Positions 1,842 to 50,489 of a DNA stretch of 64,000 nucleotides are shown here, piece after piece. Within the stretch, counting starts at the first letter, position 1, and the number at the start of each line of letters is the position of its first letter. The notes beneath the pieces were generated by a model. It worked only from the letters and a program-made list of their open reading frames with translations. It had not been told where the DNA came from and searched no databases. Both the position numbers and the translations under genes were made by a program. Origin of the DNA: Mariniflexile fucanivorans (GTDB taxonomy: Bacteria; Bacteroidota; Bacteroidia; Flavobacteriales; Flavobacteriaceae); NCBI RefSeq assembly GCF_004341235.1, contig NZ_SLUP01000004.1, positions 248,001-312,000 of the forward strand. The letters are read 5' to 3'.

Positions 1842-1883
1842 AATGAGCTATAGTTTATATGGAATGAGTTATAATTTATATGA
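1842..1883 (+). promoter_or_regulatory. Tandem 21-bp operator, copy A, upstream of the first enzyme cassette
   Basis: Two near-identical 21-base units follow each other directly (1842-1862 and 1863-1883), both of the form AATGAGYTATARTTTATATG. The cores ATAGTTTA (1850) and ATAATTTA (1871) are exactly 21 bp apart. A TAGTTTTT stretch at 1895-1902, close to the Bacteroidota -7 box TAnnTTTG, begins 24 bp after the second core. The same arrangement occurs at 29805, 30244, 32534, 38245 and 50431. I infer the binding site of an AraC-type activator. The regulator gene is not in the window. Confidence 0.7.
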
Positions 1884-1993
1884 TAAGACACGAATAGTTT
1901 TTAAAATTGTATTGGCTTTAAATTTTATTAAATAGTGATTTAAATCATCGTTGATTAAGCCTTTTTTGTTGAAAAATAAAATTGAAATTTAGT

Positions 1994-3751
1994 ATGAAAA
2001 GAATAATTTGGGGAATTTTAGTGATTTTGGTTTTTGGTTCAGCATGTGCTCAAAAAGTAGTAAAGCCTGAATTAACAAAAACAAAAGAAATTTCAGATGC
2101 AGAACGCATGGCTTGGTGGGAAGAAGCTCGCTTTGGTATGTTTATCCATTGGGGAATTTATACCGTTCCAGCAGGTTTTTATAAAGGCGAAGCACAGACC
2201 AACAGTGCCGAGTGGATAATGAACAAAGGAAAAATTCCAATATCTGAATATGAGCAATTTGCAAAAGAATTCAACCCAACAAAATTTAATGCTAAAGAAT
2301 TCGTAGCACTTGCGAAACAAGCGGGCATGAAATATATGGTTATTACGGCGAAGCATCATGACGGATTCTCTATGTTCGATTCTAAGGCAACCGATTATAA
2401 TATTGTAGATGCCACACCATTTAAACGTGATGTATTAAAGGAATTGGCAAAAGAGTGTCAAGAACAAGGTATTAAATTTGGATTCTATTATTCACAAGCG
2501 CAAGATTGGCACCATCCAGGTGGTTTAGGAAACACTTGGGATAAAGATTTGAAACGTGTAAGCAGCGATGAATATGTATACGAAAAAGCACTTCCTGAAG
2601 TAAAACAATTACTAACAGAATATGGGCCAATCGCTATTTTTTGGTGGGATACACCACGAGCCATGACAAAATCTGTTGTAGATAGTTTACACCATATTAC
2701 CACAGCGCTTCAACCAAGAATAATCACAAACGATCGTTTGGGTGATGATTATCCAGGCGACCATAAAACTTTTGAAAGAAACGGACCAAGATACCAACCT
2801 GAAGCTAAATATTGGGAATTATGTAAACCAATTAGTGGCAGTTGGGGCTATCGTAGCGATGATAATGATTTCAATTCGGTTGAAACCTTAATTCATAATT
2901 TAATAGATCAAAGCAGTAAAGGTGGTAACTTCTTATTGAATGTAAGTCCAACCCGTGAAGGCACTTTAAGAACAGAAGCTACAGATCGTTTAAAAGCAAT
3001 GGGTGCATGGATGGATAAAAACAGTGAAGCTATTTATGGCACACAAGCTAGCCCAACAAGTTCCGAACCAAATTGGGGCAAAATCACCATGAAAACGGTC
3101 GATAACAAAGGATTGTTATACTTGCATGTTTTCGATTGGAAAGATGGCGCTTCTCTGCCAATAAGACTTAAGAATAATGTGGAAGCATGTTATTTACTTA
3201 CCGATAAATCGAGAACATTCAAAACAAATGCTTTTGAAGATGGTATTCAAGTAAAATTAACTGGTGAAGCGCCAGATAGCGTAGCATCTGTAATTGTTTT
3301 AAAATTAAAAGAAATGCCAAACGCCTTACCTCAAAAAGCATTGGGGCAAGATGAATCAGGAGTCGCAATTTTACCTGCCGTTAGAGCACAATATGAAAAT
3401 TTGCAAGGTCCAGGAGCATTGTATAATGACCATTTAGATTGCGTAGGAAGTTGGGACAGCGAAACCGCTAGAGTGTATTGGGCATTCGAAATTAAAAAAC
3501 CAGGCAATTTTAATATGGTTGCCGGTTATTCTGGAGATAAAGACACTGAAATAACCGTTCTATTTAATGGCGTATCAAAAAATGTAAAAATTCCTGCTAG
3601 CGGCGACAATCCTAAGCGATTTAAAACCGTAGATTTAGGTAATTTTAAAGTTGATAAAGCTGGTAAGTATGAGTTATCTTTAATGCCTGTGGCAGGAAAA
3701 TGGAACATGATTAATTTGAAGGAAGTCAAAATTCAACCAATAAAAAACTAA
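1994..3751 (+). CDS. GH29 alpha-L-fucosidase with extra C-terminal sandwich domain
   Basis: GH29 enzymes remove alpha-L-fucose by a retaining mechanism. The protein has a signal peptide (residues 1-20, ending SACAQ), the N-terminal family motif with FGMFIHWG, the KHHDGFSMFDS segment and the predicted nucleophile Asp219 in IFWWDTP. The barrel runs to about residue 345 (KGGNFLLNVSPT) and is followed by the usual small sandwich. About 130 further residues (from near 450) look like an added beta-sandwich, possibly carbohydrate-binding. I prefer the ATG at 1994 over an in-frame TTG at 1982 because it starts the signal peptide cleanly. It is the first gene after the operator at 1842 and is 15 bp from the next gene. 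Subfamily and linkage cannot be read from the sequence by eye. Confidence 0.93.
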   Translation: MKRIIWGILVILVFGSACAQKVVKPELTKTKEISDAERMAWWEEARFGMFIHWGIYTVPAGFYKGEAQTNSAEWIMNKGKIPISEYEQFAKEFNPTKFNAKEFVALAKQAGMKYMVITAKHHDGFSMFDSKATDYNIVDATPFKRDVLKELAKECQEQGIKFGFYYSQAQDWHHPGGLGNTWDKDLKRVSSDEYVYEKALPEVKQLLTEYGPIAIFWWDTPRAMTKSVVDSLHHITTALQPRIITNDRLGDDYPGDHKTFERNGPRYQPEAKYWELCKPISGSWGYRSDDNDFNSVETLIHNLIDQSSKGGNFLLNVSPTREGTLRTEATDRLKAMGAWMDKNSEAIYGTQASPTSSEPNWGKITMKTVDNKGLLYLHVFDWKDGASLPIRLKNNVEACYLLTDKSRTFKTNAFEDGIQVKLTGEAPDSVASVIVLKLKEMPNALPQKALGQDESGVAILPAVRAQYENLQGPGALYNDHLDCVGSWDSETARVYWAFEIKKPGNFNMVAGYSGDKDTEITVLFNGVSKNVKIPASGDNPKRFKTVDLGNFKVDKAGKYELSLMPVAGKWNMINLKEVKIQPIKN

Positions 3752-3766
3752 ATTTTATATCATTCA

Positions 3767-4855
3767 ATGAAGCATCTCATTCTTTTATTTATCATATTTA
3801 TTGCATCTTCTTGCCATGCACAGAATGCTATTTTCGATAATTTAAAAGAAGCACCCGTAAACGGTGGTCTTGAAATGAAAGATTATTGGGTTTGGGGGAG
3901 TTCGGTAATTAAAGGCGACGATGGAAAATATCACATGTACGCATCACGTTGGCCTAAAATGTTACCATTTCACCCAGGTTGGATGATAGCTTCGGAAATC
4001 GTACATGCCGTTTCAGATACTCCTGAAGGACCTTATAAATTTGAAGCTATTGCTTTAGGAAATAGAGGGGCTCAGTTTTGGGATGGTCGCTCATGCCATA
4101 ACCCAAAAATTGTGAAATATAAAGACACTTATATTTTATATTATATGGGTTCAACCCATCCATTTGAGGAGGTGGCAACGGATAATTTAAGTGAATTCAA
4201 TTTATCAAGCAAATGGTGTATCGCTGCCAGATGGGGAAAACGCATCGGTATAGCGACTTCAAAAAGTCCCTACGGCCCTTGGGAACGAAAAGATGCGCCC
4301 ATTTTAGATGTAAAACCAAACTCTTATTATAGTTTTCTAACGTCTAATCCGTCACCTTTAATTAAAGATGATGGATCTGTTGTTTTACTATTTAAAGGAA
4401 GAAGTTATAAAGAAGATGGCATTTCAAATAGTGATATGAGTATTGGAGTCGCCACAGCAGCAACGTTTGATGGTAAATATACGGTAATAGGTGATGAACC
4501 ATTGTTTTCATTGGAACATTTTGGTGAAGTTGAAGATCCACATTTATGGAGCGACAACGATGGCTATCATATGGTAGCAAAAGACCAAAGAGGAGCCATT
4601 ACGGGGAATGCTGGCGATGGACTTTTAGCGCATTCCAAAGATGGTATTAATTGGGTGGTTGAAGAAAATCCAAAGGCATATACAAAAACCGTAAATTGGA
4701 ACAATGGAAAAACAATAACGCAAGGGCAATTAGAGCGTCCTTTTGTTTTTGTTGAAAACGGAAAACCAACCCATATATTTTTCGCAACTATGGATGGACC
4801 GGGAGGTTTTGGTAATGGAACCAAAACGTGGAATATGGTTATTCCATTAAAATGA
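3767..4855 (+). CDS. Five-bladed beta-propeller glycoside hydrolase, GH43/GH117-like
   Basis: A 362-residue secreted protein. The N-terminus is a signal peptide with a possible lipidated Cys (IASSCHAQ). Repeated blade-like segments such as VIKGDDGKYHMYASRWPK, IVKYKDTYILYYMGS, GIATSKSPYGPWERKDAP and EVEDPHLWSDNDGYHMVAKD are typical of the GH43/GH117/GH32 propeller fold. Acidic residues suited to catalysis lie in these segments, but I cannot fix the exact family. Such enzymes usually cleave terminal pentose or anhydro-sugar units. It lies 15 bp after the GH29 gene and is probably cotranscribed with it. Confidence 0.75.
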   Translation: MKHLILLFIIFIASSCHAQNAIFDNLKEAPVNGGLEMKDYWVWGSSVIKGDDGKYHMYASRWPKMLPFHPGWMIASEIVHAVSDTPEGPYKFEAIALGNRGAQFWDGRSCHNPKIVKYKDTYILYYMGSTHPFEEVATDNLSEFNLSSKWCIAARWGKRIGIATSKSPYGPWERKDAPILDVKPNSYYSFLTSNPSPLIKDDGSVVLLFKGRSYKEDGISNSDMSIGVATAATFDGKYTVIGDEPLFSLEHFGEVEDPHLWSDNDGYHMVAKDQRGAITGNAGDGLLAHSKDGINWVVEENPKAYTKTVNWNNGKTITQGQLERPFVFVENGKPTHIFFATMDGPGGFGNGTKTWNMVIPLK

Positions 4856-4914
4856 ATTTATAAAAATAATAAATAATTAAAAAAGTTAACACGATTGTTG
4901 TGAAATCATTATTT

Positions 4915-4957
4915 CAACTAACAACTAACAACTAACAACTAACAACTTAACAACTAA
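4915..4957. repeat. Heptanucleotide tandem repeat, about six CAACTAA units
   Basis: CAACTAA is repeated four times exactly (4915-4942), then once with an extra T (4943-4950), then once more (4951-4957), ending about 12 bases before the ATG of the sugar porter gene. It falls in the expected 5' leader. Copy number could vary by slippage. Confidence 0.9.
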
Positions 4958-4969
4958 CACTTTTATAAA

Positions 4970-6298
4970 ATGAACAAAAAAATATTATTATGGTCCATTA
5001 CTGCAGCACTAGCAGGGTTTTTATTTGGATTCGATGTGGTGGTAATCTCTGGTGCCGATAAAAAACTACAAGCCATTTGGGAGTCTTCAGATGCTTTTCA
5101 CGGTTGGGTAGTTATGGGTGCAGCACTTTGGGGAACCGTAGTTGGTGCCATTTTTGGAGGATTACCAACCAATAAATATGGTCGTAAAAATACCTTAATT
5201 GTTATTGGGGTTTTATTTGCGGTTTCTGCCATAGGTTCTGCTTTCGCTAACGATCCTTATGTGTTCGCCTTTGCTCGTTTTATAGGTGGTCTTGGCGTTG
5301 GTGCATCAACCATCGCAGCTCCTGCATATATCTCGGAAATTGCACCTGCAAAAGATAGAGGGCGTTTGGTAGCTATGTACCAATTTAATATTGTTTTTGG
5401 TATTATGATTGCCTTTTTTTCCAATTATTTATTAAGCGGAATAGGTGAAAACGCATGGCGTTGGATGCTGGGGGTTGAAGCCATTCCTGCCGTATTATAT
5501 ATTTTATTTGCTTTAAAAGTTCCAAAAAGCCCAAGATGGTTATTATCGCAGGGTAGAGAAGCAGAAGCGAGAGAAGTATTAAAAATTATTGAGCCAAATG
5601 CGAATGTTGATGAATTGGTACATGAATATAATACACATTCAGATAAAAGTGATAAATCGGAAACTATCTTCATTAAAAAATACAGATTTCCTTTAATGTT
5701 AGCATTTTTAATAGCGTTTTTCAATCAATTTTCAGGAATCAACGCATTTTTATACTATGCGCCACGTATTTTTGAAGAAGCTGGTTTGGGTGAAAGCACA
5801 GCCTTGTTAAGTAGTATTGGAATAGGTGTTACCAATCTTATTTTTACATTATTGGGTGTGTTTTTAATTGATAAATTAGGAAGAAAAACACTCATGTATA
5901 TTGGTTCCATAGGCTATATAGTGTCATTAGGTTTAGTGTCTGCTGCCTTTTTCTTAGGATGGACAGGAATGGCGGTGCCAGTTTTCTTATTCCTATTTAT
6001 AGCAGCACACGCTATTGGTCAAGGTGCCGTTATTTGGGTATTTATTTCTGAAATTTTCCCGAATCATTTAAGAGCATCAGGACAGGCTTTTGGAAGCTCA
6101 ACACACTGGATTTTGGCGGCTATTATACCATCCTCCATACCATTTTTGTTTAATCATCCTATGATTGGGCCAGGTGTTGTATTCCTTGTTTTTGCAGGAA
6201 TGATGGTGTTGCAATTATTATTTGTTGCCTTTATGATGCCAGAAACTAAAGGAAAAACTTTAGAGGAATTGGAAGATATCATGATAAAAAAGCAATAG
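4970..6298 (+). CDS. MFS sugar porter (inner-membrane monosaccharide:H+ symporter)
   Basis: A 442-residue membrane protein with about 12 hydrophobic segments and the sugar porter (SP) family signatures in order: KYGRKNT after TM2, EIAPAKDRGRLVAMYQ after TM4, KSPRWLL before the central loop, NQFSGINAFLYYAPRIF in TM7, DKLGRK after TM8, and the C-terminal PETKGKTLEELED. SP proteins import hexoses or pentoses across the inner membrane. It has no signal peptide. In this locus it most likely brings in a released monosaccharide; the SP family is more often linked to xylose, galactose or glucose than to fucose. It is set off by 114 bp from the gene before and 108 bp from the gene after, so it may have its own control. 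Confidence 0.92.
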   Translation: MNKKILLWSITAALAGFLFGFDVVVISGADKKLQAIWESSDAFHGWVVMGAALWGTVVGAIFGGLPTNKYGRKNTLIVIGVLFAVSAIGSAFANDPYVFAFARFIGGLGVGASTIAAPAYISEIAPAKDRGRLVAMYQFNIVFGIMIAFFSNYLLSGIGENAWRWMLGVEAIPAVLYILFALKVPKSPRWLLSQGREAEAREVLKIIEPNANVDELVHEYNTHSDKSDKSETIFIKKYRFPLMLAFLIAFFNQFSGINAFLYYAPRIFEEAGLGESTALLSSIGIGVTNLIFTLLGVFLIDKLGRKTLMYIGSIGYIVSLGLVSAAFFLGWTGMAVPVFLFLFIAAHAIGQGAVIWVFISEIFPNHLRASGQAFGSSTHWILAAIIPSSIPFLFNHPMIGPGVVFLVFAGMMVLQLLFVAFMMPETKGKTLEELEDIMIKKQ

Positions 6299-6315
6299 AA
6301 AAGCACTTATAATAA

Positions 6316-6382
6316 TCCCGCAGATTATGCAGATTACAACGAATAACTTAAAAATCTGCGTTTATCAGCGAAATCTGCGGGA
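6316..6382. repeat. Flavobacterial intergenic inverted repeat
   Basis: Outer arms TCCCGCAGATT (6316-6326) and AATCTGCGGGA (6372-6382) are perfect complements, and an inner pair GCAGATT (6329) with AATCTGC (6353) nests inside. The AATCTGCG-rich type is a familiar dispersed intergenic element in Bacteroidota. It could fold in the mRNA between the porter and the esterase. Confidence 0.7.
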
Positions 6383-6406
6383 AATGAATAACAATAAAAT
6401 GTCTAC

Positions 6407-7231
6407 ATGAAAAAAATAATAAGCCATATCATATTACTACTATTAGCTTTCAATGTGTCTGCTGCAAATGTTGATACGCTTGTTGTTTTTAGTAAATCCA
6501 TGAATAAGGAAATTAAAAATGTAGTCATTACGCCCAATTCATATAAAAAAAACGGCAATGCTTTTTCTGTTGTGTATTTACTTCATGGAGCTGGTGGCGA
6601 CCACAAAGCATGGTTAGGGAAATCACCCGATATTAAAACCTACGCAGACCAATACAATGTTGTTTTAGTATGTCCTGATGGACAAAAAACTAGTTGGTAT
6701 TTTGATAGCCCAATTGACAAAACCATGCAATACGAAACATATATTTCAAAAGAATTAATTACAGAAATTGATAAAAAATACAATACAATTGCTAATAAAG
6801 AACATCGAGCCATTACAGGTTACAGCATGGGTGGCCATGGTGCGTTATATTTAGCGTTTAAGCATCCCGATATTTGGGGTGTTGCAGCAAGCATGAGCGG
6901 TGGCGTTGACATTAGACCATTTCCATTAAAATGGGATATTGAAAAAAGATTAGGTGTTTATGCTGAAAATCCTGAAGTTTGGGAGCAAAATACCGTAATT
7001 AATTTGGTGCATTTACTTAATGGTAAAAACTTAAAATTTCTTTTTGATTGTGGTGTCGATGATTTTTTTTACGATGCCAATCTAAGGCTTCACAAAAAGC
7101 TTTTAGAACGTAATATTCCACATGATTATATAGAACGCCCAGGAGGGCATACCAATAACTATTGGAATAACTCCATAAAATACCAAATGCTTTTTTTTAG
7201 CGAATTTTTTAAAAATACCAATAACGAATAG
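6407..7231 (+). CDS. Secreted CE1-type esterase (putative esterase family)
   Basis: A 274-residue alpha/beta-hydrolase of the S-formylglutathione hydrolase/feruloyl esterase type. It has a signal peptide ending near NVSAA, an oxyanion-region YLLHGAGGDHKAW, and the nucleophile elbow GYSMGGHG with Ser140. A late Asp (DCGVDD) and a His (RPGGHTNN) complete a plausible triad. Its likely role is removing acetyl or other acyl groups from the polysaccharide so that the hydrolases and lyases can act. The next gene, a sulfatase, starts 2 bp after the stop, so the two are almost certainly cotranscribed. Confidence 0.85.
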   Translation: MKKIISHIILLLLAFNVSAANVDTLVVFSKSMNKEIKNVVITPNSYKKNGNAFSVVYLLHGAGGDHKAWLGKSPDIKTYADQYNVVLVCPDGQKTSWYFDSPIDKTMQYETYISKELITEIDKKYNTIANKEHRAITGYSMGGHGALYLAFKHPDIWGVAASMSGGVDIRPFPLKWDIEKRLGVYAENPEVWEQNTVINLVHLLNGKNLKFLFDCGVDDFFYDANLRLHKKLLERNIPHDYIERPGGHTNNYWNNSIKYQMLFFSEFFKNTNNE

Positions 7232-7233
7232 TA

Positions 7234-8703
7234 ATGAATTTTAAATTATTTTTTTTACTAATTATTGTTTCATGCTTTTCTTGTAAAAGTAACAATACAA
7301 CTAGAAAACAAGAAACAACAACTACGGTTTCAAACACGCAACCCAATATTGTAGTTTTATTATGCGACGATTTAGGCTATGGCGATTTATCTTCCTTCGG
7401 GCATCCCATCATCAAAACTGAAAATCTGGATAAACTAGCTGCTAACGGAATTAAATTAACCAATTTTTACTCTACCGCACCCGTTTGTTCACCTTCTAGG
7501 GCTGGATTACTTACAGGCAGAAGTCCAAATCGTGCTGGTATTTATGATTTTATTCCCGGCATTAAAAAAAGTCCAGATAATAGAGATATGGTGCATCTTC
7601 AAGCGCATGAAGAAACCATTCCTGCCATGTTAAAATCTGTTGGATATGCAACGTGTTTGGTTGGGAAATGGCACTGTTCTTCCAGGTTTAATTCAAAAGA
7701 ACAACCGCAACCAAATGATTTTGGTTTTGACTATTGGATGGCAACCCATAACAATGCAGCACCAAGTCACCACAACCCTAACAACTTCATTAGAAATGGT
7801 GAAGAAGTTGGAGAAATAGAAGGCTATAGTAGTCAAATTATAGTTACTGAAGCTATTAATTGGTTAGACAATAAAAAGGACAACAAACCATTCTTTTTGG
7901 AAGTAACTTTTCACGAACCACATGAACCTGTTGCTTCACCTGAAGATTTAGTACAAAAATATTTACCACTTTCAAAAAATAGAGAGCAAGCCGAATATTT
8001 TGCCAATGTTGAAAATGTAGATTTAGCTGTTGGACGTTTAATTGCATATTTAGAAGAAAACAACTTAAATAACACTTTAATTGTTTTTTCTTCGGATAAT
8101 GGCCCAGAAACCTTAATGCGGTATGATAGAGCTAAACATTCATATGGTTCTCCTGGTGAATTAAAAGGCATGAAATTATGGACGAATGAAGCTGGTTTTA
8201 GAGTGCCAGGAATCATCAATTGGATGGGTAAAAAAACATTTACAGGAACATCGGACAAAGTGGTTTCTGCATTAGATTTTTTACCAACATTTGCGGAACT
8301 TTCTGGGGCGAAATTACCTAATCGAGTATTAGATGGCGAATCGTTCACGTCACTCTTAAATAACGGCGATTTTAACAGAACCAAACCATTAATTTGGGCG
8401 TTTTACGATGCATTGAATGATCGTATGGTTGCCATGAGACATGGTGATTATAAAATCATGGCACGTTTAGATGTTGATAATGTTCCCGTGCCAAATTTCC
8501 ATAATTTATACGATGGAAACATCGATTATATAAAAAGTGCAAAACTGACTGATTTTGTTTTATTCAATTTGAAAAATGATATCAGCGAATCTGAGGATGT
8601 ATCTAAAAAACAACCTGAGGTTTTTCAAAAGATGAAAGCTGAGTTTGAAATTCAGTATAAAGAACTTTTAGACGGAAGCCATGTTTGGGTTCGAAATAAC
8701 TAG
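7234..8703 (+). CDS. Family S1 sulfatase (formylglycine type), lipoprotein
   Basis: S1 sulfatases remove sulfate esters using a Cys or Ser matured to formylglycine. Here the motif is CSPSRAGLLTGR with Cys85, preceded by the metal-binding CDDLGYGD and followed by VGKWHC and SSDNGPE. The 489-residue length is normal. The N-terminus has a hydrophobic stretch ending in FSCKS, consistent with lipidation, so it probably acts in the periplasm or at the surface. The maturation enzyme is not encoded in this window. The subfamily and the sulfated position are not determined. Confidence 0.93.
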   Translation: MNFKLFFLLIIVSCFSCKSNNTTRKQETTTTVSNTQPNIVVLLCDDLGYGDLSSFGHPIIKTENLDKLAANGIKLTNFYSTAPVCSPSRAGLLTGRSPNRAGIYDFIPGIKKSPDNRDMVHLQAHEETIPAMLKSVGYATCLVGKWHCSSRFNSKEQPQPNDFGFDYWMATHNNAAPSHHNPNNFIRNGEEVGEIEGYSSQIIVTEAINWLDNKKDNKPFFLEVTFHEPHEPVASPEDLVQKYLPLSKNREQAEYFANVENVDLAVGRLIAYLEENNLNNTLIVFSSDNGPETLMRYDRAKHSYGSPGELKGMKLWTNEAGFRVPGIINWMGKKTFTGTSDKVVSALDFLPTFAELSGAKLPNRVLDGESFTSLLNNGDFNRTKPLIWAFYDALNDRMVAMRHGDYKIMARLDVDNVPVPNFHNLYDGNIDYIKSAKLTDFVLFNLKNDISESEDVSKKQPEVFQKMKAEFEIQYKELLDGSHVWVRNN

Positions 8704-8719
8704 TAATTGTTGAAATGGG

Positions 8720-11530
8720 ATGAAAAAGATTTTTTTATTTATTTGTTTGAATTTGATTTTAACAAAAGTCGTTAATGCGCAATTTGTATTTCCAAAAGAC
8801 ATAGATCGAGCACATCCACGATTAATTTTACCTAAAATAACTAAGGAAAATATCCTAAAAAATATTGAATCATCAGAGGATGTAAAACAATCGTACAACG
8901 CGTTCAAAAGTAAAATTTCAAAATACGTAGCCCAATATAAAACCGACCCCGAATGGTTGTCGTCTCGTTTTCAAATGTATTGGAAAAGTCATGCCACCAA
9001 TATTTATGTAAATGGTGAATATTATTCGCATGCCGATGGAAAAGCACCCGTTCCTACTGTTCGACTTACAGGTCAACGCGACTACGTATCCGATTATAAA
9101 ACACCAAAGTTAGAAGATGTAAAACCATATCTAGAAGACGAAAGAGGTTTGTATCTTGAAAATTCTAAAACGAATCAATGGGAATGGGTGAAACCTTCTA
9201 AAACAGGTCGAGCCATAGAAAATACCAACGAAAACATTATGGGTATTGCCCGAGATGCATCCTTGGTTTATTTTGTGGAAGGTGATGAAGACTATGCTAA
9301 ATTGGCGTTGCATTTATTTGACGTCTATATGCAAGGTTTATACTATCGGAATGAACCTATCGACCTGAAAAATGGTAATGTGCAAAACGTTATTGGATTA
9401 ACATCTTTTCAAGTTATTAAAGAAAATATTGTGGATGAGTTGGCAGAAACTTATGATTTTTTACACGATTATATCCAAAAAAATCATAAAAAGGAAGACA
9501 AAATTTATACAGCGTCGTTAAAAAAGCTGGCTGAAATCATCATAAAAAACGGGGTACCAGACAATAACTGGAACTTGCATCAGGCGAATTTTGTCATCCA
9601 AATTGCCTTGGCTTTAGATGAAGACAAAACCTATGAAGATGGTAGAGGCTGCCAATATTATTTAAACCGAGTTTTTAACGAAACCGAAGCAAGACAGTGG
9701 TCGGTAACCGATGTTTTGGCTTATGGCTACGATCAAAATAATGGCGTTTGGAACGAAAGTTCTGGTTATGCACTAAGTGTAGCAAAAGGGTTTACGGAAT
9801 TAGCAATGGTTATTCAGAATGCTTTAAATGTGGATGTTTTAAAGTATATGCCCATTATTCCGCAAGCAGTTACCATTATGCCGCAATATTTGTATCCAAA
9901 TAATAACATTGTAGCCTTTGGAGATTCTCATTACGGACCACTACAAACCGAACCGCTTTTAGACCTTATTGGCAACGCACAACACTTCAATAAAAAGGAG
10001 CAAGAAGAAAAATTTACAGCACTTTTATACATGCTTCAAGGAAAAGACAAAGCCATTAAAGAGCGAAAAAGTAAAAATGCATTCCATGATTTGCTTTATA
10101 AAAACGAAATCCATTTAGATAAAACTATTAAACCTGCCAGCATAACAGATTATACCACGGCTTCATTTTATGCACCCAATGTGAGTTGGTTGGTGATGCG
10201 AAACAGTATGGATATTCAAAACGGATTGATGATTTCTCAAGTAGGTTCATTAGGAAATCATGCGCATTCCAACGGCATCGCCATGGAACTTTATGGCAAA
10301 GGCTATATTTTGGCGCCTGAAGGTGGGAGAGGTTCTAGTTATTTTCAGCCAGATTATCGTGAGTATTACTCGCAGTTTCCAGCCCATAATACGGTGTCTG
10401 TAAATGGAAAATCGGAGTACAACAAAATGCGTAGTTATTATGCTTTTGAAATCAATGCCTTATATCCAGCTTCTGAACAAAAATTAGGTTATTATCCAAA
10501 TATTAATTTTTCAGATGTTTATTTTAATGAACCGAGTACCAACTCCGACCAAAACAGGGTGATGAGCATTGTACGCACAGGTGAAACTTCAGGTTATTAC
10601 ATCGATATTTTCAGGTCGAAAACAAAAACAGGAAATGCCGATTATCACGATTATTTCTATCATAATTTAGGTCAAGAGTTGCAATTGACTTCACCGGAAA
10701 ATAAACCATTGGCATTACAACCATCGTCAAAATTAAATTCAAAATCGGGAAATATAAAAGCTTATGATTATTTATCGGATGAAACTTCGGTTAAAATCAA
10801 TTCATCATTTAAAGCTACTTACAATCTATCAATTAATGATGAGAAAATAAGTATGAATATGTGGATGAATGGAAACAACAATCGAGAGATTTTCAAAGTA
10901 AATTCACCGCCTTCCGAAGCATTCCGAAAAGTACTTCCTGAAAATATTGAAAAAGCACCGCTTTTAACCACGGTGGTTCGACAATATGGTGAAGCTTGGA
11001 ACAAACCTTTTGTAGCAGTTTATGAACCTTCAATAACCAAAGAACCTGCAACTATAAAATCAGTTAAACCATTTTCTGTTGAGACGAATACTTCCAGTTT
11101 TGTTGGTTTAGAAATAGCAAGTAAAGCCGATAGAACAGATTATGTTTTTTCTTCGGATATTCAAGATTCGTTCGCCCACAATAACATCAATTTCATAGGA
11201 ACTTTTGGAATTTTATCCAAGGAATCTGAAACTTCAACACTTTTTATGGGATCCGGAAAGAAAATAGAATTTGGAGGTTACACAGTTGAAATATTAGGAA
11301 AAAAATCGGGAGCAGCAACCTTGGTTTTTGGCAAGCATTTTGAGTTAACCTGTGATGATGCCATTCTATTAACGGTGCCAGATGATTATAAAAAAGGGGA
11401 TGTTGTTTTAAATCTAGGGTTTAAACAATTAAATGGCGAGCGCACCCAAATAAATGGAAACAAAATAGTGGTGTTTAAAGTGCCACCAACCGAATTTCAA
11501 GCCATAACCATAAATGTAAAAGAGAATTAG
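8720..11530 (+). CDS. Large heparinase II/III-fold protein, paralogue A (putative uronate lyase)
   Basis: A 936-residue secreted protein (signal peptide ending VVNAQ). An alpha/alpha-toroid N-terminal half is followed by a beta-sandwich half of the heparinase II/III type. Conserved marks are NWNLHQAN, GNHAHSNG and SQFPAHNTV, whose Asn and His residues are likely catalytic or binding residues. Such enzymes cleave uronic-acid-containing chains by beta-elimination. Three relatives of about the same length occur at 16723, 19404 and 33697; this one resembles the 33697 protein most. The exact PL family is uncertain: several heparinase-fold PL families, including ulvan-active ones, have this architecture. 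It lies 16 bp after the sulfatase. Confidence 0.85.
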   Translation: MKKIFLFICLNLILTKVVNAQFVFPKDIDRAHPRLILPKITKENILKNIESSEDVKQSYNAFKSKISKYVAQYKTDPEWLSSRFQMYWKSHATNIYVNGEYYSHADGKAPVPTVRLTGQRDYVSDYKTPKLEDVKPYLEDERGLYLENSKTNQWEWVKPSKTGRAIENTNENIMGIARDASLVYFVEGDEDYAKLALHLFDVYMQGLYYRNEPIDLKNGNVQNVIGLTSFQVIKENIVDELAETYDFLHDYIQKNHKKEDKIYTASLKKLAEIIIKNGVPDNNWNLHQANFVIQIALALDEDKTYEDGRGCQYYLNRVFNETEARQWSVTDVLAYGYDQNNGVWNESSGYALSVAKGFTELAMVIQNALNVDVLKYMPIIPQAVTIMPQYLYPNNNIVAFGDSHYGPLQTEPLLDLIGNAQHFNKKEQEEKFTALLYMLQGKDKAIKERKSKNAFHDLLYKNEIHLDKTIKPASITDYTTASFYAPNVSWLVMRNSMDIQNGLMISQVGSLGNHAHSNGIAMELYGKGYILAPEGGRGSSYFQPDYREYYSQFPAHNTVSVNGKSEYNKMRSYYAFEINALYPASEQKLGYYPNINFSDVYFNEPSTNSDQNRVMSIVRTGETSGYYIDIFRSKTKTGNADYHDYFYHNLGQELQLTSPENKPLALQPSSKLNSKSGNIKAYDYLSDETSVKINSSFKATYNLSINDEKISMNMWMNGNNNREIFKVNSPPSEAFRKVLPENIEKAPLLTTVVRQYGEAWNKPFVAVYEPSITKEPATIKSVKPFSVETNTSSFVGLEIASKADRTDYVFSSDIQDSFAHNNINFIGTFGILSKESETSTLFMGSGKKIEFGGYTVEILGKKSGAATLVFGKHFELTCDDAILLTVPDDYKKGDVVLNLGFKQLNGERTQINGNKIVVFKVPPTEFQAITINVKEN

Positions 11531-11590
11531 TACAAAGCGTAAGGCTTATTTAATATGAACGAATTAATAAAGTATCAAATATTTAAAATT

Positions 11591-13012
11591 ATGAATTATC
11601 AATGTAATAAAGTAAAGGCGAGTGTTGTGTTTTTTCTTTTCCTATTTAGTTATGTAACTGTAATAGCACAACAACCAGCAGAGGTATATTATTTAAAATT
11701 ATCTGGCGATATTCCAGATGGAAAAATTGCCGTAGAAAAATACAATGCATCTGAAAATGAGACGCAGAGCCGAAGAAAAAATCCAATAAATCTATATCCA
11801 AATATCGAGTTTCAAACCTTTGAAGGTTTTGGTGGTGCTTTTAACGAAATTGGTGGTGAAGCTTTAATGACTTTGCCAAAAGCGAAACAAAAAGAAGTTG
11901 CGGCTAATTTATTCAATATGAATACCGGCGCTAAACTTAACTTTTGTAGAACCGCAGTTGGTGCTAGCGATTTTGGTATTGATGCTTACAGTTATGCTGA
12001 AAAAGAAAATGATTTTAAAATGAAAGATTTCTCAATTAAGCGTGAAGAAACATCGGTAATACCTTATATTCAACAAGCTTTAAAAGAAAACCCAGATCTT
12101 AAAATTTTTGCTTCGCCTTGGAGTCCTCCGGCATGGATGAAATATTCAGGATTTATGGATCGCGGTGAGGAGTTTCCTGAGAAAAACCAATTAAAAGATG
12201 AACCTAAAATTTATGAAGCGTATGCTTTGTATTTTTCAAAATACATTCAAGCTTATGCCGAAAAAGGGATTGATGTAGATCGTTTAATCATTCAAAATGA
12301 AAACGATGCCAATACCAAATATCCGTCTAACGATATGTCTGCGGCTCAAATGAGTAAATTTGTGAAAACGTATTTGCGTCCGCAGTTTAATTCTGATAAA
12401 ATTGACACCGAAATTTGGGCAGGAACGTTTAGAACTTATGGGCGTATAGATGCCATAGAAATCGCTTCAAATCCTGAATATAGTGCATTATATGACGGTA
12501 TTGGCATTCAATATACGTCTCCAAAATATATTCAGGATTTAACCACACTATATCCTAATGACAAAACCATGCATACCGAAGGCAATTGCCACGATGGAAA
12601 AAACAACTGGGATCAAGCTGCAGGTCGTTTGAAAGAAGTAGCACAATATTTCAATTATGGTATTCCGAATTACTGTTATTGGAACATGATTTTAAATGAA
12701 ACGACCGAAAGTGGTTGGGATTGGAAACAAAATTCGTTAATCAATATCGATAGAAATACAAAGGAAGTAACCTATAATCCAGATTACGCTGTGTTTGCAT
12801 TTATGAGTACGTATTTGGTTCCGGGAGCGAAACGTATTGCTAATTTTTCAAAAGATGAATTGATTTCTGTGAAGCATAATAATAAAATTTATGTACTAGT
12901 TCAGAATAATAACGATGCACCACAAACTTACGAATGCCAGATAGCAAATGGAGAGAAACAAATTGTGAATCTTCCAAGTCAAACTTTGGCTGTAATTATT
13001 TTAGATATCTAA
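11591..13012 (+). CDS. GH30 glycoside hydrolase (glucosylceramidase-like)
   Basis: GH30 enzymes are retaining beta-glycosidases (glucosidase, xylosidase, fucosidase and xylanase activities are known). The family opening QTFEGFGGAFNEIGGEA, the acid/base Glu237 in IIQNENDA and the nucleophile Glu330 in MHTEGN are all present. The usual C-terminal sandwich ends the 474-residue protein. The open frame extends to a methionine at 11555, but the ATG at 11591 gives a normal signal peptide ending VIAQ and is preferred. It lies 15 bp before the GH97 gene and is probably in the same transcript. Confidence 0.9.
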   Translation: MNYQCNKVKASVVFFLFLFSYVTVIAQQPAEVYYLKLSGDIPDGKIAVEKYNASENETQSRRKNPINLYPNIEFQTFEGFGGAFNEIGGEALMTLPKAKQKEVAANLFNMNTGAKLNFCRTAVGASDFGIDAYSYAEKENDFKMKDFSIKREETSVIPYIQQALKENPDLKIFASPWSPPAWMKYSGFMDRGEEFPEKNQLKDEPKIYEAYALYFSKYIQAYAEKGIDVDRLIIQNENDANTKYPSNDMSAAQMSKFVKTYLRPQFNSDKIDTEIWAGTFRTYGRIDAIEIASNPEYSALYDGIGIQYTSPKYIQDLTTLYPNDKTMHTEGNCHDGKNNWDQAAGRLKEVAQYFNYGIPNYCYWNMILNETTESGWDWKQNSLINIDRNTKEVTYNPDYAVFAFMSTYLVPGAKRIANFSKDELISVKHNNKIYVLVQNNNDAPQTYECQIANGEKQIVNLPSQTLAVIILDI

Positions 13013-13027
13013 ATATAAATAAGGAAG

Positions 13028-15028
13028 ATGAGATTAACTGTTTCAAAATTATTGTTTGTGTTTTTTGTAACGATTTGGGCTTTTGTAGGCTGTAAAAGTT
13101 CACAAAAAAGCATTCAGTTAAGCTCACCAAATGGCGATAATGTATTTAAGGTTTTATCTGCTGAAAATGAGTCGGTAAATCAGGGTATTTCATTTTCCAT
13201 ATTCTATAAAGAAAATCAAATTTTATTACCATCTATTTTAGAATTGGTTTCGAATGATTTAAATTTTAGTGGTAAGCTATCGGTTTTGAAAGTAGAAGAG
13301 TCTAGTGTAGACAACGAATGGCATTCCAATTTCAGTGAATTAAGCACCATTCCAGACCAATACAATCAACTAAAAATATTCTTAAAATTAGATGAAACGA
13401 AGCTTAATATTATAGTCAGAGCTTATAATGAAGGCATCGCTTTTGCTTACGAAGTCCCAGAACAAAATGGTATTTCAGAGATTGGTTTAAGTGAAAACAT
13501 TCATTATAATTTTCAAGAAAATTATTCCGTTTGGTCAACGCCAAGAAGAGAAAAAAGGATGCTAACGGCCCAAGGAAAATACCGAAAAATTCCTATGACC
13601 GAATTAGAAGTTGGTGCAGAACGTCCACTTTTAATTGAAATTAGCGATAGCATTAAAATAGCTTTAGCGGAAGCCAAATTAGTGGATTATGCGAGATTGA
13701 GTTTTAACAAAGGAACCTCGTCAAAGTATAGTATTGTTTCTTCTCTCGATGGAAAAATGAGAGAGCAAAAACAGGATACCATTACAGGAGCTATTATTTC
13801 TGATCGTATCGATGCAGGTACAAAGGTTCATAAAAAATTACCTTTTCAATCACCATGGCGTGTGGTTATGATGGGGAAAAGTTATGCCGAATTGATTGAA
13901 AACAATTACATCATTCAAAATTTAAGTGATCCTTCTCAAATAGCAGATGAATCTTGGATTTCTCCAGGAAAGGTACTACGCGAAGGCACCCTAACAACGC
14001 AAGGTGGTTTTGCAGCCATCGATTTTGTTGCGAGCCATAACATGCAATATGTACATTTTGATGCTGGTTGGTACGGTAATGAAATGGAAGATGCATCTGA
14101 TGCCACCACCGTTACATTGGACCCTAAACGTTCTAAAGGACCGTTTGATATCGAAGCCATCTGTAAATACGCCAAAGAAAAAGGCGTTAAGGTGATGCTG
14201 TATGTAAACCGAAGAGCTTTAGAAAAACAACTGGACGACATATTGCCATTGTTTAAAGAATGGGGGATTTCTGGAATTAAATTTGGCTTTGTTAGAGTGG
14301 GCGACCAAGATGCAACGTCTTGGATGCACGAAGCTATAAAAAAAGCTGCCGAATACAAAATGGTAGTTGATGTTCATGATGAATACAGGCCAACAGGTTT
14401 TTCAAGAACCTATCCTAATTTTTTAACCCAAGAAGGCATTCGTGGGGATGAGGAATCTGTGCCTAACGACCATACTTTAATTACCATGTTTACCAGAATG
14501 TTGGCAGGTGCTGCTGATAATACGGTTTGCTATTACAATGCAAGAGTAAATAAAATGGGATCTCATGCCTCACAATTAGCAAAAACAGTGTGCATTTTTA
14601 GTCCATTGCAATTTTTGTATTGGTACGATAAAGCTCCGGCGGTTCCAGTTAAAGACGATGCACTTTGGGGGAATACCAATACCATTGGAAATGAACCCGA
14701 ATTGGAGTTTTTCAACAATGTACCGACTACTTGGGATGAAACCAAAGTGCTTCAAGCTGAAATTGGCGAAATAGGAGTTATTGCCCGTAGAAAAGGCAAC
14801 GATTGGTTTATTGGATGTATCAATGGAACCACGGAGCGTGATATTATCCTAGATTTTTCATTTTTAAAAGAAAACACAAATTATAAGGGAAAGGTATATA
14901 CCGATGACGAGAGCCTCAATACCAGAACCCATGTAAAAATTGAAGAAAAAGAATTTAATAATAATTCGAAATTAAACTTAAACGTGAAAAGCAACAATGG
15001 TTTTGTGATTTATATTGAAGAAAATTAA
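13028..15028 (+). CDS. GH97 glycoside hydrolase, predicted inverting type
   Basis: GH97 is a mainly Bacteroidota family of alpha-glucosidases and alpha-galactosidases. The N-terminal super-sandwich (to about residue 280), the barrel with HFDAGWYGN, and the C-terminal sandwich are all recognisable in 666 residues. In retaining members an Asp acts as nucleophile after the GIK motif. Here the segment is GIKFGFV, with Gly420 at that place, while Glu452 (HDEYRPTG) and Glu475/Glu476 (RGDEES) are available. This matches the inverting, SusB-like group. The N-terminus ends in FVGCKSS, suggesting a lipoprotein. Confidence 0.9.
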   Translation: MRLTVSKLLFVFFVTIWAFVGCKSSQKSIQLSSPNGDNVFKVLSAENESVNQGISFSIFYKENQILLPSILELVSNDLNFSGKLSVLKVEESSVDNEWHSNFSELSTIPDQYNQLKIFLKLDETKLNIIVRAYNEGIAFAYEVPEQNGISEIGLSENIHYNFQENYSVWSTPRREKRMLTAQGKYRKIPMTELEVGAERPLLIEISDSIKIALAEAKLVDYARLSFNKGTSSKYSIVSSLDGKMREQKQDTITGAIISDRIDAGTKVHKKLPFQSPWRVVMMGKSYAELIENNYIIQNLSDPSQIADESWISPGKVLREGTLTTQGGFAAIDFVASHNMQYVHFDAGWYGNEMEDASDATTVTLDPKRSKGPFDIEAICKYAKEKGVKVMLYVNRRALEKQLDDILPLFKEWGISGIKFGFVRVGDQDATSWMHEAIKKAAEYKMVVDVHDEYRPTGFSRTYPNFLTQEGIRGDEESVPNDHTLITMFTRMLAGAADNTVCYYNARVNKMGSHASQLAKTVCIFSPLQFLYWYDKAPAVPVKDDALWGNTNTIGNEPELEFFNNVPTTWDETKVLQAEIGEIGVIARRKGNDWFIGCINGTTERDIILDFSFLKENTNYKGKVYTDDESLNTRTHVKIEEKEFNNNSKLNLNVKSNNGFVIYIEEN

Positions 15029-15042
15029 ATATATAATTGATA

Positions 15043-16701
15043 ATGAATAAAAGTTTAAAATTAGTAGCTGTATTGCTTTTAATGGTAACCGTATCTTGTA
15101 AAACACAAGGCGTCAAGACAGTAAAAAAAGAGCTGCCAACCCAACGACCTAATATCATTTTTATGATGTCTGATGATCATGCGTATCAAGCCATTAGTGC
15201 TTACAGCGATCATCTAATTAAAACACCAAATATCGACCGTATTGCAAATGAAGGTATTAAGTTTACTAATGCCTGTGTGTCCAATTCAATTTGTGCACCT
15301 TCACGAGCAACCATTTTAACTGGTAAACATTGCCATATTCATGGAAAAGTTGATAATGTGTTTCCTTTTGATGAATCTCAAACCACCTTTCCGCAGTTAA
15401 TGCAAGAAGCAGGGTATCAAACGGCGATGTTCGGAAAATTGCATTTCGGAAACAATCCAAAAGGGATAGATGAATTTAAAATTTTACCGGGACAGGGAAG
15501 ATATTATAATCCTATTTTCGATACCAACGACGGACAAATTACGGTTGAAGGTTATGTAACCGATATTATTATGGACATGACTTTAGAGTGGTTGGAAAAC
15601 AGAAGAGATGAAAACAAGCCATTTATGTTGTTTTCCATGCAAAAAGCACCGCATAGAGAATGGTTGCCAGCGCCACGTCACTTTAAAGAATTCACTAAGA
15701 AAACCTTTGTAGAACCAGAAACTTTGTTCGATGACTACGAAGGTAGAGGGTCGGCGGCTAAAACCGCAGAAATGAATTTGTTGGAACATATGAATTGGGC
15801 TGGAGACTCTAAAATGTACCCAGAAATGATGGCAGAATTGGGCATCAAAGATAAATCTGGTTGGGATGTTGAAGCGTTCGACCGTGAGGTAGGTGCCATG
15901 AATGCCGAACAAAGAGCGGTTTGGGATTCTGTTTACGGACCTATGATGGAAGATTTTAAAAAACAATATCCAAACATGAACGATACCGAGTTGATGAAAT
16001 GGCGTTACCAACGTTACATGCAAGATTACTTGGGTTGTATTGCTTCTGTAGATGAAAATGTAGGTCGTTTATTAGATTATTTAGATAAAACAGGACTTGA
16101 TGATAACACCATCATCGTGTATACCTCCGATCAAGGTTTTTATTTAGGAGAACATGGTTGGTTCGATAAGCGTTTTGTTTACGATGAATCTTTTAAAACG
16201 CCCTTATTAATTAAGTGGCCAAATGTGATTACACCAGGAACCACCAATACTGAAATGGTTCAAAATTTAGACTTTGCACAAACCATTTTAGAAGCGGCGC
16301 ATATTGTGCCACCTTCCGATATGCAAGGCGAAAGTTTAATACCGTTATTACTTGGAAATAATAAAGAGTGGACCAGAGATGCGGTGTATTATCACTATTA
16401 CGAATATCCAGGAATCCACATGGTAAAAAGGCATTATGCCATTATTACTCAGGAATATAAGTTAGCACATTTTTATTATGATGTGGATGAATGGGAACTT
16501 TACGATCGTAAAAACGATCCTCAAGAAATGAAGAATGTGATTAACGATCCTGCGTACGCCAATGTGGTTGTAAAACTGAAAAAGCAACTATCCGAAATGC
16601 GTAAACATTATGGCGATAGTTCAGAGTTAGATCAGGAAATACTTAAAAAATATCTGGAGGCAAAAAACAATCCGGATATTGAAACAGTACCGCTTCATTA
16701 A
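15043..16701 (+). CDS. Family S1 sulfatase, lipoprotein
   Basis: A 552-residue sulfatase with the formylglycine motif CAPSRATILTGK (Cys84), metal-site segment FMMSDDHAYQ, MFGKLHFG, and SDQGFYLGEHGWFDKR near the C-terminus. The wording around the active site (SNSICAPSRATILTGKHCH) resembles the GlcNAc-6-sulfatase/arylsulfatase-like branch more than the sulfatase at 7234, so it probably acts on a different position or sugar. The start is taken at the ATG at 15043 rather than an upstream TTG. The signal peptide ends VTVSC, a probable lipidation site. It lies 14 bp after the GH97 gene. Confidence 0.93.
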   Translation: MNKSLKLVAVLLLMVTVSCKTQGVKTVKKELPTQRPNIIFMMSDDHAYQAISAYSDHLIKTPNIDRIANEGIKFTNACVSNSICAPSRATILTGKHCHIHGKVDNVFPFDESQTTFPQLMQEAGYQTAMFGKLHFGNNPKGIDEFKILPGQGRYYNPIFDTNDGQITVEGYVTDIIMDMTLEWLENRRDENKPFMLFSMQKAPHREWLPAPRHFKEFTKKTFVEPETLFDDYEGRGSAAKTAEMNLLEHMNWAGDSKMYPEMMAELGIKDKSGWDVEAFDREVGAMNAEQRAVWDSVYGPMMEDFKKQYPNMNDTELMKWRYQRYMQDYLGCIASVDENVGRLLDYLDKTGLDDNTIIVYTSDQGFYLGEHGWFDKRFVYDESFKTPLLIKWPNVITPGTTNTEMVQNLDFAQTILEAAHIVPPSDMQGESLIPLLLGNNKEWTRDAVYYHYYEYPGIHMVKRHYAIITQEYKLAHFYYDVDEWELYDRKNDPQEMKNVINDPAYANVVVKLKKQLSEMRKHYGDSSELDQEILKKYLEAKNNPDIETVPLH

Positions 16702-16722
16702 AAACAAAAAAGTTTAAACTGT

Positions 16723-19395: not shown

Positions 19396-19403
19396 TTCGT
19401 AAG

Positions 19404-22202: not shown

Positions 22203-22212
22203 ATAGAATCAA

Positions 22213-28700: not shown

Positions 28701-28802
28701 AGTTTTTAATTGACTTATGAGTTTTAAATAAAAATGGATTTTCATAAATTACACCCAGCGGATAAAACGCAATACTAGTTGAAAGATTTTAAATCATAGA
28801 AA

Positions 28803-29795: not shown

Positions 29796-29800
29796 AAAAT

Positions 29801-29837
29801 TATCATAGTTTATATGCATTGAATCATGATTTAAAAG
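29801..29837 (+). promoter_or_regulatory. Tandem 21-bp operator, copy F (no intact gene directly downstream)
   Basis: ATAGTTTA (29805-29812) and ATGATTTA (29826-29833), both preceded by TC, are exactly 21 bp apart. It begins 10 bases after the SGNH gene's stop codon. The next intact gene starts nearly 500 bp away and has its own operator copy. Confidence 0.55.
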
Positions 29838-30180
29838 CTATTTCAAAAAAAATACAATAACATTGTTGCAACAGTTTTTATGTTGTCTTCAATGGTTTTT
29901 TTATACATTCTCTTTCAAAATAAACAGCTTTGGTTGAAAATTTTCAACCGACCTCTAAAGTTGTATTCAAATGGCAACGCATGGCAACATTTAGTTTATT
30001 CAGTTCCAAAGGAATTCGTGATTAATTGTGAATGAAAGCAGTAAAAAACGGAAGTTATGATGCTTCAAAAGAAGTTGGTTAAAGTCAAACTAAATTAATC
30101 AATTGTTCTTTAACTGAATTATTCAGAATAAAACGTCAATCCATAAAAAAGCTAAAAAGTAATTAAATCATACAAAAATA
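29834..30180 (+). pseudogene. Possible gene relic in a 524-base gene-poor stretch
   Basis: Between 29796 and 30319 no intact gene is visible. Directly after operator F there is a short frame beginning like a signal peptide (around 29882, MLSSMVFLYILF) that stops after about 51 codons. In another frame near 29937 stands QPTSKVVFKWQRMATF, faintly like the start of some GH29 proteins. Both stop soon after. I read this as the decayed remains of a gene once driven by operator F, with low confidence. It may equally be plain intergenic DNA. Confidence 0.25.
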
Positions 30181-30224: not shown

Positions 30225-30238
30225 GTTAAAAGGGCTTT

Positions 30239-30296
30239 AAGTTATAACTCATACAACATATGTTATAATTTAAAGTGGTATTGGTTTGTATTTTTG
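30239..30296 (+). promoter_or_regulatory. Tandem operator, copy E, plus -7 box, upstream of the beta-helix/T9SS gene
   Basis: ATAACTCA (30244) and ATAATTTA (30265) are 21 bp apart; the first half-site is the weaker. TATTTTTG at 30289-30296 is a perfect match to the Bacteroidota -7 consensus TAnnTTTG and begins 24 bp after the second core, so that half-site covers the place of the -33 box, as expected for activator-dependent transcription. The start codon follows at 30320. Confidence 0.65.
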
Positions 30297-32442: not shown

Positions 32443-32529
32443 ATCTAAGCTCAAAATAAGCTTATGCGTCATAAAATATATGCATATGTTATAAAGTGCT
32501 TTTATACAATACTTATTGGATATGAAAAC

Positions 32530-32571
32530 GCCCATAATTTATAGTTAATGAGACATAATTTATAGTTAATC
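32530..32571 (+). promoter_or_regulatory. Tandem 21-bp operator, copy B, upstream of the Kelch-lyase-GH172 cassette
   Basis: CATAATTTATAGTTAAT occurs twice without mismatch, at 32533-32549 and 32554-32570, exactly 21 bp apart. It is the cleanest copy of the motif. The first gene of the cassette starts at 32688. I see no good TAnnTTTG box at the distance found for copy E. Confidence 0.7.
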
Positions 32572-38181: not shown

Positions 38182-38239
38182 GGTGATTTCTCAATTTTGG
38201 GTGGTTTTTATCTTGAATGCGTTTAAATGATGGCGATAT

Positions 38240-38280
38240 AGGCTATAATTTATAGAGCATGAGTAATGATTTATATATAA
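38240..38280 (+). promoter_or_regulatory. Tandem 21-bp operator, copy C, upstream of the cassette at 38323
   Basis: ATAATTTA (38245) and ATGATTTA (38266) are 21 bp apart, within GGCTATAATTTATAG and GAGTAATGATTTATA. The start codon of the first gene follows about 50 bp after the second half-site. Confidence 0.62.
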
Positions 38281-38322
38281 TCATTCTTAAAATAATTAAT
38301 TTGCTAAATTAAATCTGTAGTC

Positions 38323-46559: not shown

Positions 46560-46564
46560 AAAAC

Positions 46565-50198: not shown

Positions 50199-50427
50199 AA
50201 TAGCTCTCAATAATATTATTGAATATGAGGTGTTGAACCTTGTAGCATTTGGAGATAAAATCTACAATTCTTATGAGATTGAGAAGTGTAATTTTTATCT
50301 TAATTTTGACTATAAGGGGTTTTGCCTGGACTTTTCTATAAAGAAGAAATTCTAGTTCATTTTTAAAAATTCTAAAATTCATAAATTTGTTTTTTAGGTT
50401 TAATAACATCAATTTTCGTGAGAATAA
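50199..50427. other. Gene-free intergenic stretch with small palindrome and mini-frame
   Basis: It holds a 16-bp perfect palindrome TCAATAATATTATTGA (50207-50222) and a 22-codon frame from 50273 that reads like a signal peptide (MRLRSVIFILILTI) and then stops. No gene is supported. Operator D follows. Confidence 0.4.
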
Positions 50428-50489
50428 GTTATAGTTTAGAAGGATTGACCCATAATTTATACTATAAAATTCACGATATAATATTTTTG
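50428..50489 (+). promoter_or_regulatory. Tandem operator, copy D, plus -7 box, upstream of the GH95 cassette
   Basis: ATAGTTTA (50431) and ATAATTTA (50452) are 21 bp apart. TATTTTTG at 50482-50489 matches TAnnTTTG but begins 30 bp after the second core, not 24 as in copy E. The methionine candidates of the GH95 gene follow at 50515 and 50548. Confidence 0.62.

Follow-up and report, generated by a model that had tools for sequence, protein, structure and literature searches.

Which regulator reads the direct repeats that stand ahead of enzyme gene cassettes in a flavobacterial polysaccharide cluster, and are these cassettes switched on together? We have addressed this question for a stretch of 64,000 nucleotides of Mariniflexile fucanivorans (the window, i.e., positions 248001-312000 of contig C4, in a genome of 4.74 Mb and 29 contigs), where paired half-sites recur with a period of 21 bp. 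The repeat, 37 bp in full, is very probably the operator of a hybrid two-component system (HTCS) encoded at C4:236016-240185, ~7.8 kb upstream of the window, and the ~20 promoters predicted to carry it should form one regulon. The initial annotation had placed all cassettes in a single regulon, with the gene of the activator lying beyond the window. The sequence supports this proposal, and the activator can now be named as this HTCS. In this way ~20 predicted promoters of a ~165-kb polysaccharide cluster are tied to one named sensor, and therefore substrate sensing, regulon size and locus boundaries become testable with a single gene deletion.

The 37-bp direct repeat on contig C4

The six annotated pairs with 21-bp spacing are all present in the window, all on the + strand, at 1850, 29805, 30244, 32534, 38245 and 50431, with 1, 3, 3, 0, 1 and 2 mismatches, respectively, to ATAATTTATA-N11-ATAATTTATA. 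Five of them hold as written. The pair at 30244 does exist, but it apparently lies 7 bp out of register and is better read at 30237, since this position has the higher matrix score (22.5 versus 18.8) and a perfect TATTTTTG, the promoter element discussed below, exactly 52 bp downstream, while the 30244 register has none at 52 bp. A matrix built from four sites, however, picked 30244 rather than 30237. In addition, the half-site, first described as 10 bp long, is of 16 bp according to the alignment of sites, i.e., TGRGYN-ATAATTTATA, which with the period of 21 gives the operator of 37 bp.

Such pairs are by no means equally frequent in shuffled sequence. For ATARTTTATA pairs at 21 bp with no more than three mismatches in total, we count 6 on the + strand of the window and 1 on its minus strand, and 200 dinucleotide shuffles average 0.2 and never exceed 2; with no more than one mismatch the counts are 4 and 0, and 100 shuffles give none. 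Over 222 kb of the contig (C4:210001-432000), a limit of one mismatch per half-site leaves 8 + strand pairs at spacing 21, none of the other spacings from 11 to 44 has more than 2, and the minus, reversed and complemented controls yield 0-1 pairs per spacing. Spacing 28 is also in excess (6 in the window by the core test, 15 on C4 by the matrix at a low threshold), and is most simply read as self-overlap of the core, because the core has ATA at both ends, 7 bp apart.

The initial annotation had suggested a matrix scan at 21-bp spacing as a check. We built a matrix from the four sites 1850, 32534, 38245 and 50431 and ran it on C4 and on control DNA (20 stretches, 400 kb, both strands, from contigs C1, C2, C3 and C5-C8), with the control maximum of 12.4 as the threshold, so that nothing in the controls lies above it. 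This gave 13 additional sites beyond the window. They all lie on the + strand, between C4:240234 and 385506 (the in-gene window position 56775 and the overlapping register 50452 are not counted). Iteration of the matrix led to 20 sites on C4: 28 + strand positions passed, of which 7 were overlapping registers (278244, 286266, 298452, 344490, 370420, 370462 and 372889) and one was inside a gene (349526). On the minus strand, 5 positions were counted in the iterated scan at a threshold of 11.9, and 2 with the 20-site matrix at 12.1, namely a + strand site reversed (12.9) and a position within a gene (14.1). The six copies noticed at first are thus all real, but they are only a part of 20 sites spread over 145 kb.

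The distance from the core to the start of the next open reading frame (ORF) on the + strand is 18-232 nt in 19 of the 20 sites, and 515 nt for the orphan copy at 29805. All 92 ORFs of C4:240334-405326 (longest-ORF rule, at least 80 aa) lie on the + strand. Among the 20 sites the mean identity is 62% in the operators and 34-36% in the flanks, and therefore most sites are not simply recent duplicates.

The HTCS predicted to read the repeat

The gene at C4:236016-240185 encodes a protein of 1389 aa that carries Reg_prop, Y_Y_Y, HisKA, HATPase_c, Response_reg and HTH_18 in one chain, that is, a cluster-encoded regulator in which propeller sensor, kinase, receiver and AraC-type domain are joined. 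The first operator lies directly after the end of this gene, 100 nt before the next one. Although the genome has 26 HTH_18 matches, there is no other one between C4:240162 and 428926. At the level of the sequence, the expectation of a hybrid two-component/AraC-type regulator with a direct-repeat operator is borne out as well, since the HTCS carries HTH_18 and the sites are tandem at 21 bp.

The repeat follows the regulator through other genomes, where it is conserved ahead of orthologous genes and linked to the regulator's orthologues. The HTCS homologues in G003, G004, G019, G007 and G006 are 88%, 81%, 73%, 58% and 57% identical, and beside them the fetched regions hold 12, 24, 5, 2 and 2 matrix matches above 14, respectively, in the direction of the HTCS gene (the counts for G003 and G004 each include one overlapping register), against 3, 4, 0, 0 and 1 on the opposite strand and none in 20 control stretches. 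Among 60 genomes (M. fucanivorans included, at most 10 candidates scored per genome), all 9 that have an HTCS homologue at least 54% identical contain a strict operator pattern. It is absent from the other 51, whose best HTCS match is no more than 40% or absent at E <= 1e-100. In the eight relatives with the pattern, 23 of 29 strict matches are on the same contig as the homologue and less than 130 kb from it.

The same tendency is seen at the level of the DNA-binding domain. In 80 HTCS loci from public genomes, all 8 with a domain at least 62% identical have matches above 14 (best 23.9-32.8), and only 2 of the remaining 72 do (17.0 and 14.7; the domain is 29-46% identical in 57 of these loci, with no value measured in 15). 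One of the two, L111, has a perfect -7 element at 52 bp, and its sequence ends before the DNA-binding domain; this site may be genuine.

It is nevertheless conceivable, if quite unlikely, that the repeat belongs to some other regulator, e.g., an unlinked AraC-family protein, and that the HTCS accompanies it by mere co-inheritance. The 26 HTH_18 matches provide candidates, operators and HTCS are inherited in one cluster, and a few operators of G003 and G019 lie apart from that cluster. However, the association persists in other genera despite strongly differing gene content, and the presence of operators tracks the identity of the DNA-binding domain (8/8 versus 2/72). Moreover, a paralogue of the HTCS with 57% identity has a related but altered repeat before an adjacent susC-sized ORF, and the interval of C4 given above lacks other HTH_18 matches.

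A second HTCS at C4:425093-429163 has the same domain set and flanks the same large cluster, and its homologues (59-76%) occur in 7 of the 8 other genomes holding the operator pattern, so that the operators might belong to it or be shared by both. We consider this very unlikely. In G019, 5 operators accompany the homologue of the first HTCS, but the second has no homologue there at E <= 1e-150. In G001, G005, G006 and G007, strict matches lie 0.1-21 kb from the first homologue, and the second is either far off on the only contig or located on a different one; for G016 the distances are 5.5 kb and ~67 kb. Within C4 itself, no high-scoring + strand site was found beyond 385506 toward the second HTCS. 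The HTCS at C4:236016-240185 is hence kept as the predicted regulator.

Promoter register and proposed mechanism

Bacteroides promoters have TAnnTTTG as their -7 element. According to PMC7366714, it has been confirmed in Flavobacterium johnsoniae, where no -33 element was found. We counted the register of this element from the first core base of the operator and accepted it when at least 5 of the 6 fixed letters agreed, for which the background is ~1.3-1.5% per position. The operators of the window, their -7 elements and the cassettes behind them are as follows (window positions):

1844..1880, + strand: operator 1, score 37.0, the best site; ahead of the cassette led by the GH29 gene 1982-3751
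1902..1909, + strand: -7 element TAAAATTG (5/6), 52 bp from the core start of operator 1
1982..29795, + strand: cassette 1, 16 ORFs, extent inferred from spacing; GH29, weak GH43-like, sugar transporter, esterases, sulfatases, heparinase-II/III-like, GH30, GH97, beta-helix, GH29, GDSL
29799..29835, + strand: operator 2, the "orphan", score 23.1; putative promoter left after deletion of a heparinase-type gene
29858..29865, + strand: -7 element TAACATTG (5/6) of operator 2, offset 53
29903..30076, + strand: putative deletion scar, ~58 codons matching the 3' end of a gene of heparinase type (full length in G003 and G004), by tblastn, blastn and a Hepar_II_III_C match
30231..30267, + strand: operator 3 (register corrected), score 22.5; ahead of the beta-helix gene 30320-32374
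30289..30296, + strand: -7 element TATTTTTG (6/6) of operator 3, offset 52
32528..32564, + strand: operator 4, both 10-bp cores perfect, score 28.8; ahead of the cassette 32688-38064 (Kelch, unknown, DUF2961)
38239..38275, + strand: operator 5, score 32.3; ahead of the cassette 38323-50198 (heparinase-like, GHL15, GH43, beta-helix/GH141-like, esterase, beta-helix, GH3)
38296..38303, + strand: -7 element TTAATTTG (5/6) of operator 5, offset 51
50425..50461, + strand: operator 6, score 29.2; ahead of the cassette led by the GH95 gene 50515-53046, which extends beyond the window end
50482..50489, + strand: -7 element TATTTTTG (6/6) of operator 6, offset 51

Over all 20 sites of C4, TAnnTTTG is found at 52 bp in 9 and at 51-53 bp in 13. 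For five relatives we took 47 sites scoring above 18 on both strands, with neighbours within 60 nt removed (23+2 in G004, 11+1 in G003, 5 in G019, 2 in G007 and 2+1 in G006); the element is at exactly 52 bp in 33 of them, and at 51 bp in 2 more. Eight named loci from Maribacter, Flavobacterium and a Flammeovirgaceae genome show it at 52 bp in 16 of 17 sites, a count that omits the low or overlapping sites L060 5663 and L062 19687 (scores 13.2 and 13.6). As the distance is fixed, the promoter-proximal half-site ends ~21 bp before TAnnTTTG, where a -33 contact would be. From this layout we infer that the activator may touch the polymerase directly. With this register as a simple rule, one could also look for further targets of the HTCS group among other Flavobacteriia.

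In unrelated HTCS loci (L067-L138; 72 loci, 367 upstream regions), 21-bp repeats with at least 11/16 agreement were found in 61 regions, the most among spacings 14-39, followed by 53 each for spacings 22 and 14 and a median near 32; the 52-bp register is claimed here only for the HTCS group of the present cluster.

That the repeats are chance products of AT-rich DNA, or recently duplicated promoter pieces with no regulatory function, can practically be dismissed, for although the region is AT-rich and the neighbouring sites 370441, 371782 and 372910 share flanks, shuffles, control DNA, the minus strand and other spacings yield little, the 52-bp register recurs across species, and the other flanks show background identity only.

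On the other hand, some observations soften the contrast with the controls, and others weigh against a single regulon under this HTCS. When two mismatches per half-site are allowed in the 222 kb of C4, the contrast becomes weaker: spacing 21 then has 20 (+) and 11 (-) pairs and is still the peak, but as many as 10 (+) pairs occur at a spacing other than 21. Two minus-strand positions of C4 pass the four-site matrix marginally (13.2 and 13.7; one is a + site reversed, the other is in a gene), and site 359546 is weak (20.2) and was missed by that matrix. For 370441 and 371782, the longest-ORF start (18 nt) falls inside the operator, so either the real start is later or the site is misplaced; these starts have probably been called too early. 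The operon boundaries were drawn from spacing alone, and regulon membership of the 92 ORFs is accordingly a prediction.

The promoter element is not universal either: no recognisable -7 element is present at 51-53 bp in 7 of the 20 own sites, nor in 12 of the 47 sites of relatives, and operator 4 (32534) has none at 50-54 bp. As to linkage, 6 of the 29 strict matches in relatives are unlinked to the HTCS homologue, four in G003 on other contigs (C12:432384, C14:11281, C28:5919 and C28:10990) and two in G019 (C1:2309619 and C1:2715008), the latter ~1 Mb or more from the homologue. These are possibly remote regulon members, sites of other regulators or, in G003, results of contig breaks. Outside the cluster of M. 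fucanivorans, C1:793870 (minus strand, L178) scores 24.7 ahead of a secreted-looking ORF, with a -7 element of only 4/6, and is a possible outlying member of the regulon. A loose pattern marks 25 distinct places off C4 (20 scored in 800-base stretches, 5 in stretches scanned earlier); two others of these are marginal (15.6 and 16.0, no -7 element), and the remaining 22 score below 14. Finally, the paralogous HTCS at C2:508885-513036 has no match above 14 in 100 kb, and its two best + strand repeats score only 13.5 and 12.3 at a control maximum of 12.1.

If the HTCS at C4:236016-240185 acts through the repeat as predicted, the cluster could be switched on in the following way. Oligosaccharides from a sulfated, fucose- and uronate-containing algal polysaccharide would bind the periplasmic beta-propeller sensor, and the kinase would phosphorylate the fused receiver; the domains for both steps are present. 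Two AraC-type domains, joined via the kinase dimer, would then occupy the two 16-bp half-sites, whose observed geometry, two helical turns apart, would put them on the same face of the DNA. Considering the fixed register, the activator probably makes up for a -33 box that is weak or missing and brings in RNA polymerase, and the ~20 promoters would switch on together.

AraC at araI of Escherichia coli is a known case of AraC-type domains on direct-repeat half-sites 21 bp apart beside a promoter, and the same arrangement of half-sites next to a promoter is seen here. The HTCS may thus work like AraC at araI, yet it is not AraC: it is a 1389-aa membrane hybrid sensor kinase with a beta-propeller, unlike a small cytoplasmic protein with an arabinose-binding domain.

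More closely related cases come from Bacteroides thetaiotaomicron. For 16 of its HTCSs, Ravcheev et al. 2013 (PMC3878776) give predicted motifs, all of them direct repeats averaging 21 bp apart; in three mannan HTCSs a 5-bp spacer separates two sites of 16 bp, and motifs resemble each other among related HTCSs. The operator described here likewise consists of two 16-bp sites and a 5-bp spacer, as predicted for HTCS_Man, and here too the regulator gene stands beside susC/susD-like genes. Different from those predictions for gut Bacteroides are the marine Flavobacteriia-type genome, the 20 predicted sites for one regulator and the measured -7 register. For BT4663 and BT4124, whose AraC-type domain is controlled by phosphorylation, PMC11253607 gives gel shifts of receiver-DNA-binding fragments on promoters that carry predicted sites. 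Our HTCS is another regulator with other predicted promoters; it shares with them the AraC-type domain and the CHIP motif described there, which is visible in its sequence. Overall, this kind of operator is already known from the Bacteroides HTCS predictions, and the present cluster is a large marine-type example with a fixed operator-promoter register. In the open-licence literature, with most subscription papers outside the search, we found no HTCS operator of Flavobacteriia, marine ones included, no measured -7 register and no regulon this large under one HTCS.

The cassettes, the orphan copy and the altered paralogue

The window genes include two GH29, GH95, GH97, GH3, GH30, GH31, GH43, GH141-like, beta-helix, sulfatase, esterase and heparinase-like members. 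Outside the window, the scanned subset of proteins holds two GH88, a second SusC/SusD pair, GH39, GH30, CBM and LRR_5 proteins carrying Por secretion tails, as well as rhamnose-mutarotase-like and KduI-like proteins. Because GH29, GH95, GH141-like, sulfatase, heparinase-like, GH88, KduI-like and rhamnose-mutarotase-like proteins occur together, the substrate would most likely be an algal polymer that is sulfated and contains fucose and uronate. For three enzymes we searched solved structures, and these searches did not separate fucoidan-like from other substrates.

The cluster includes susC/susD-like genes, and site 244447 lies 232 nt before a susC-like ORF. A single in-frame stop divides this susC-like gene (C4:244679-247885, 5' of the window) into two ORFs, 309 and 740 aa long; its homologues in G003 and G004 are fully open. 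Either the main transporter has really been lost, or the assembly is wrong here.

The copy at 29805 had been regarded as an orphan. It is a real site, and comparison with G003 and G004 explains it as a promoter that lost its heparinase-type gene through a deletion. In both relatives, an operator matching the orphan precedes a gene of 767 or 762 aa with a heparinase II/III C-terminal domain. By blastn, the orphan promoter (29802-29902) is 85% identical to the G004 promoter, and 29899-30102 is 72% identical to the 3' end of the G004 gene; for the scar of 58 codons (29903-30076), tblastn against the G003 and G004 genes gives E values of 2e-15 (G003) and 9e-12. Relative to G004, ~2.1 kb has been lost at this locus. 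Within 29796-30320 the promoter is fused to the gene's 3' end; at the join, 4 bp belong to both alignments and may represent microhomology. We also considered a small RNA at the orphan promoter and rejected it: the sole Rfam match in 29700-30400 is a microRNA family with a score of 20.6 against a gathering threshold of 88 (E 0.14), and the deletion scar accounts for much of this stretch.

Gene order varies strongly among the relatives, and the operators precede different leading genes. In two of them, G003 and G006, the susC/susD block runs against the direction of the HTCS, with an operator of likewise inverted direction ahead of it. It seems that cassettes have been shuffled, inverted, gained and lost between species together with the attached operator, and the orphan would be one such loss.

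The paralogue at C2:508885-513036 is 57% identical to the HTCS overall and 70% in the DNA-binding domain. Its repeats keep TGRRYTATAR and differ at the 3' end, and both have a 5/6 -7 element at 52 bp. One of them lies 100 nt before a susC-sized, unannotated ORF of 1048 aa adjoining the C2 HTCS. In an alignment of 15 domains, the second helix-turn-helix has a threonine in the C2 paralogue and an alanine in all 14 others; as a guess, this substitution causes the altered repeat. We suggest only tentatively that the operator with its fixed 52-bp register is a portable cassette tag, by which genes may join, leave, invert and move inside one very large polysaccharide regulon while a single HTCS reads them all, and that a duplicated HTCS of this genome became insulated through a change confined to the 3' end of the half-site, perhaps via the second helix-turn-helix. 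The pair of paralogues with related but different repeats provides a natural case for the study of specificity change in AraC-type domains.

Lastly, the three adjacent operators at C4:370441, 371782 and 372910 share similar flanks, and the two scanned ORFs behind them are LRR_5/Por-tail proteins. This suggests a recent tandem duplication of promoter plus gene.

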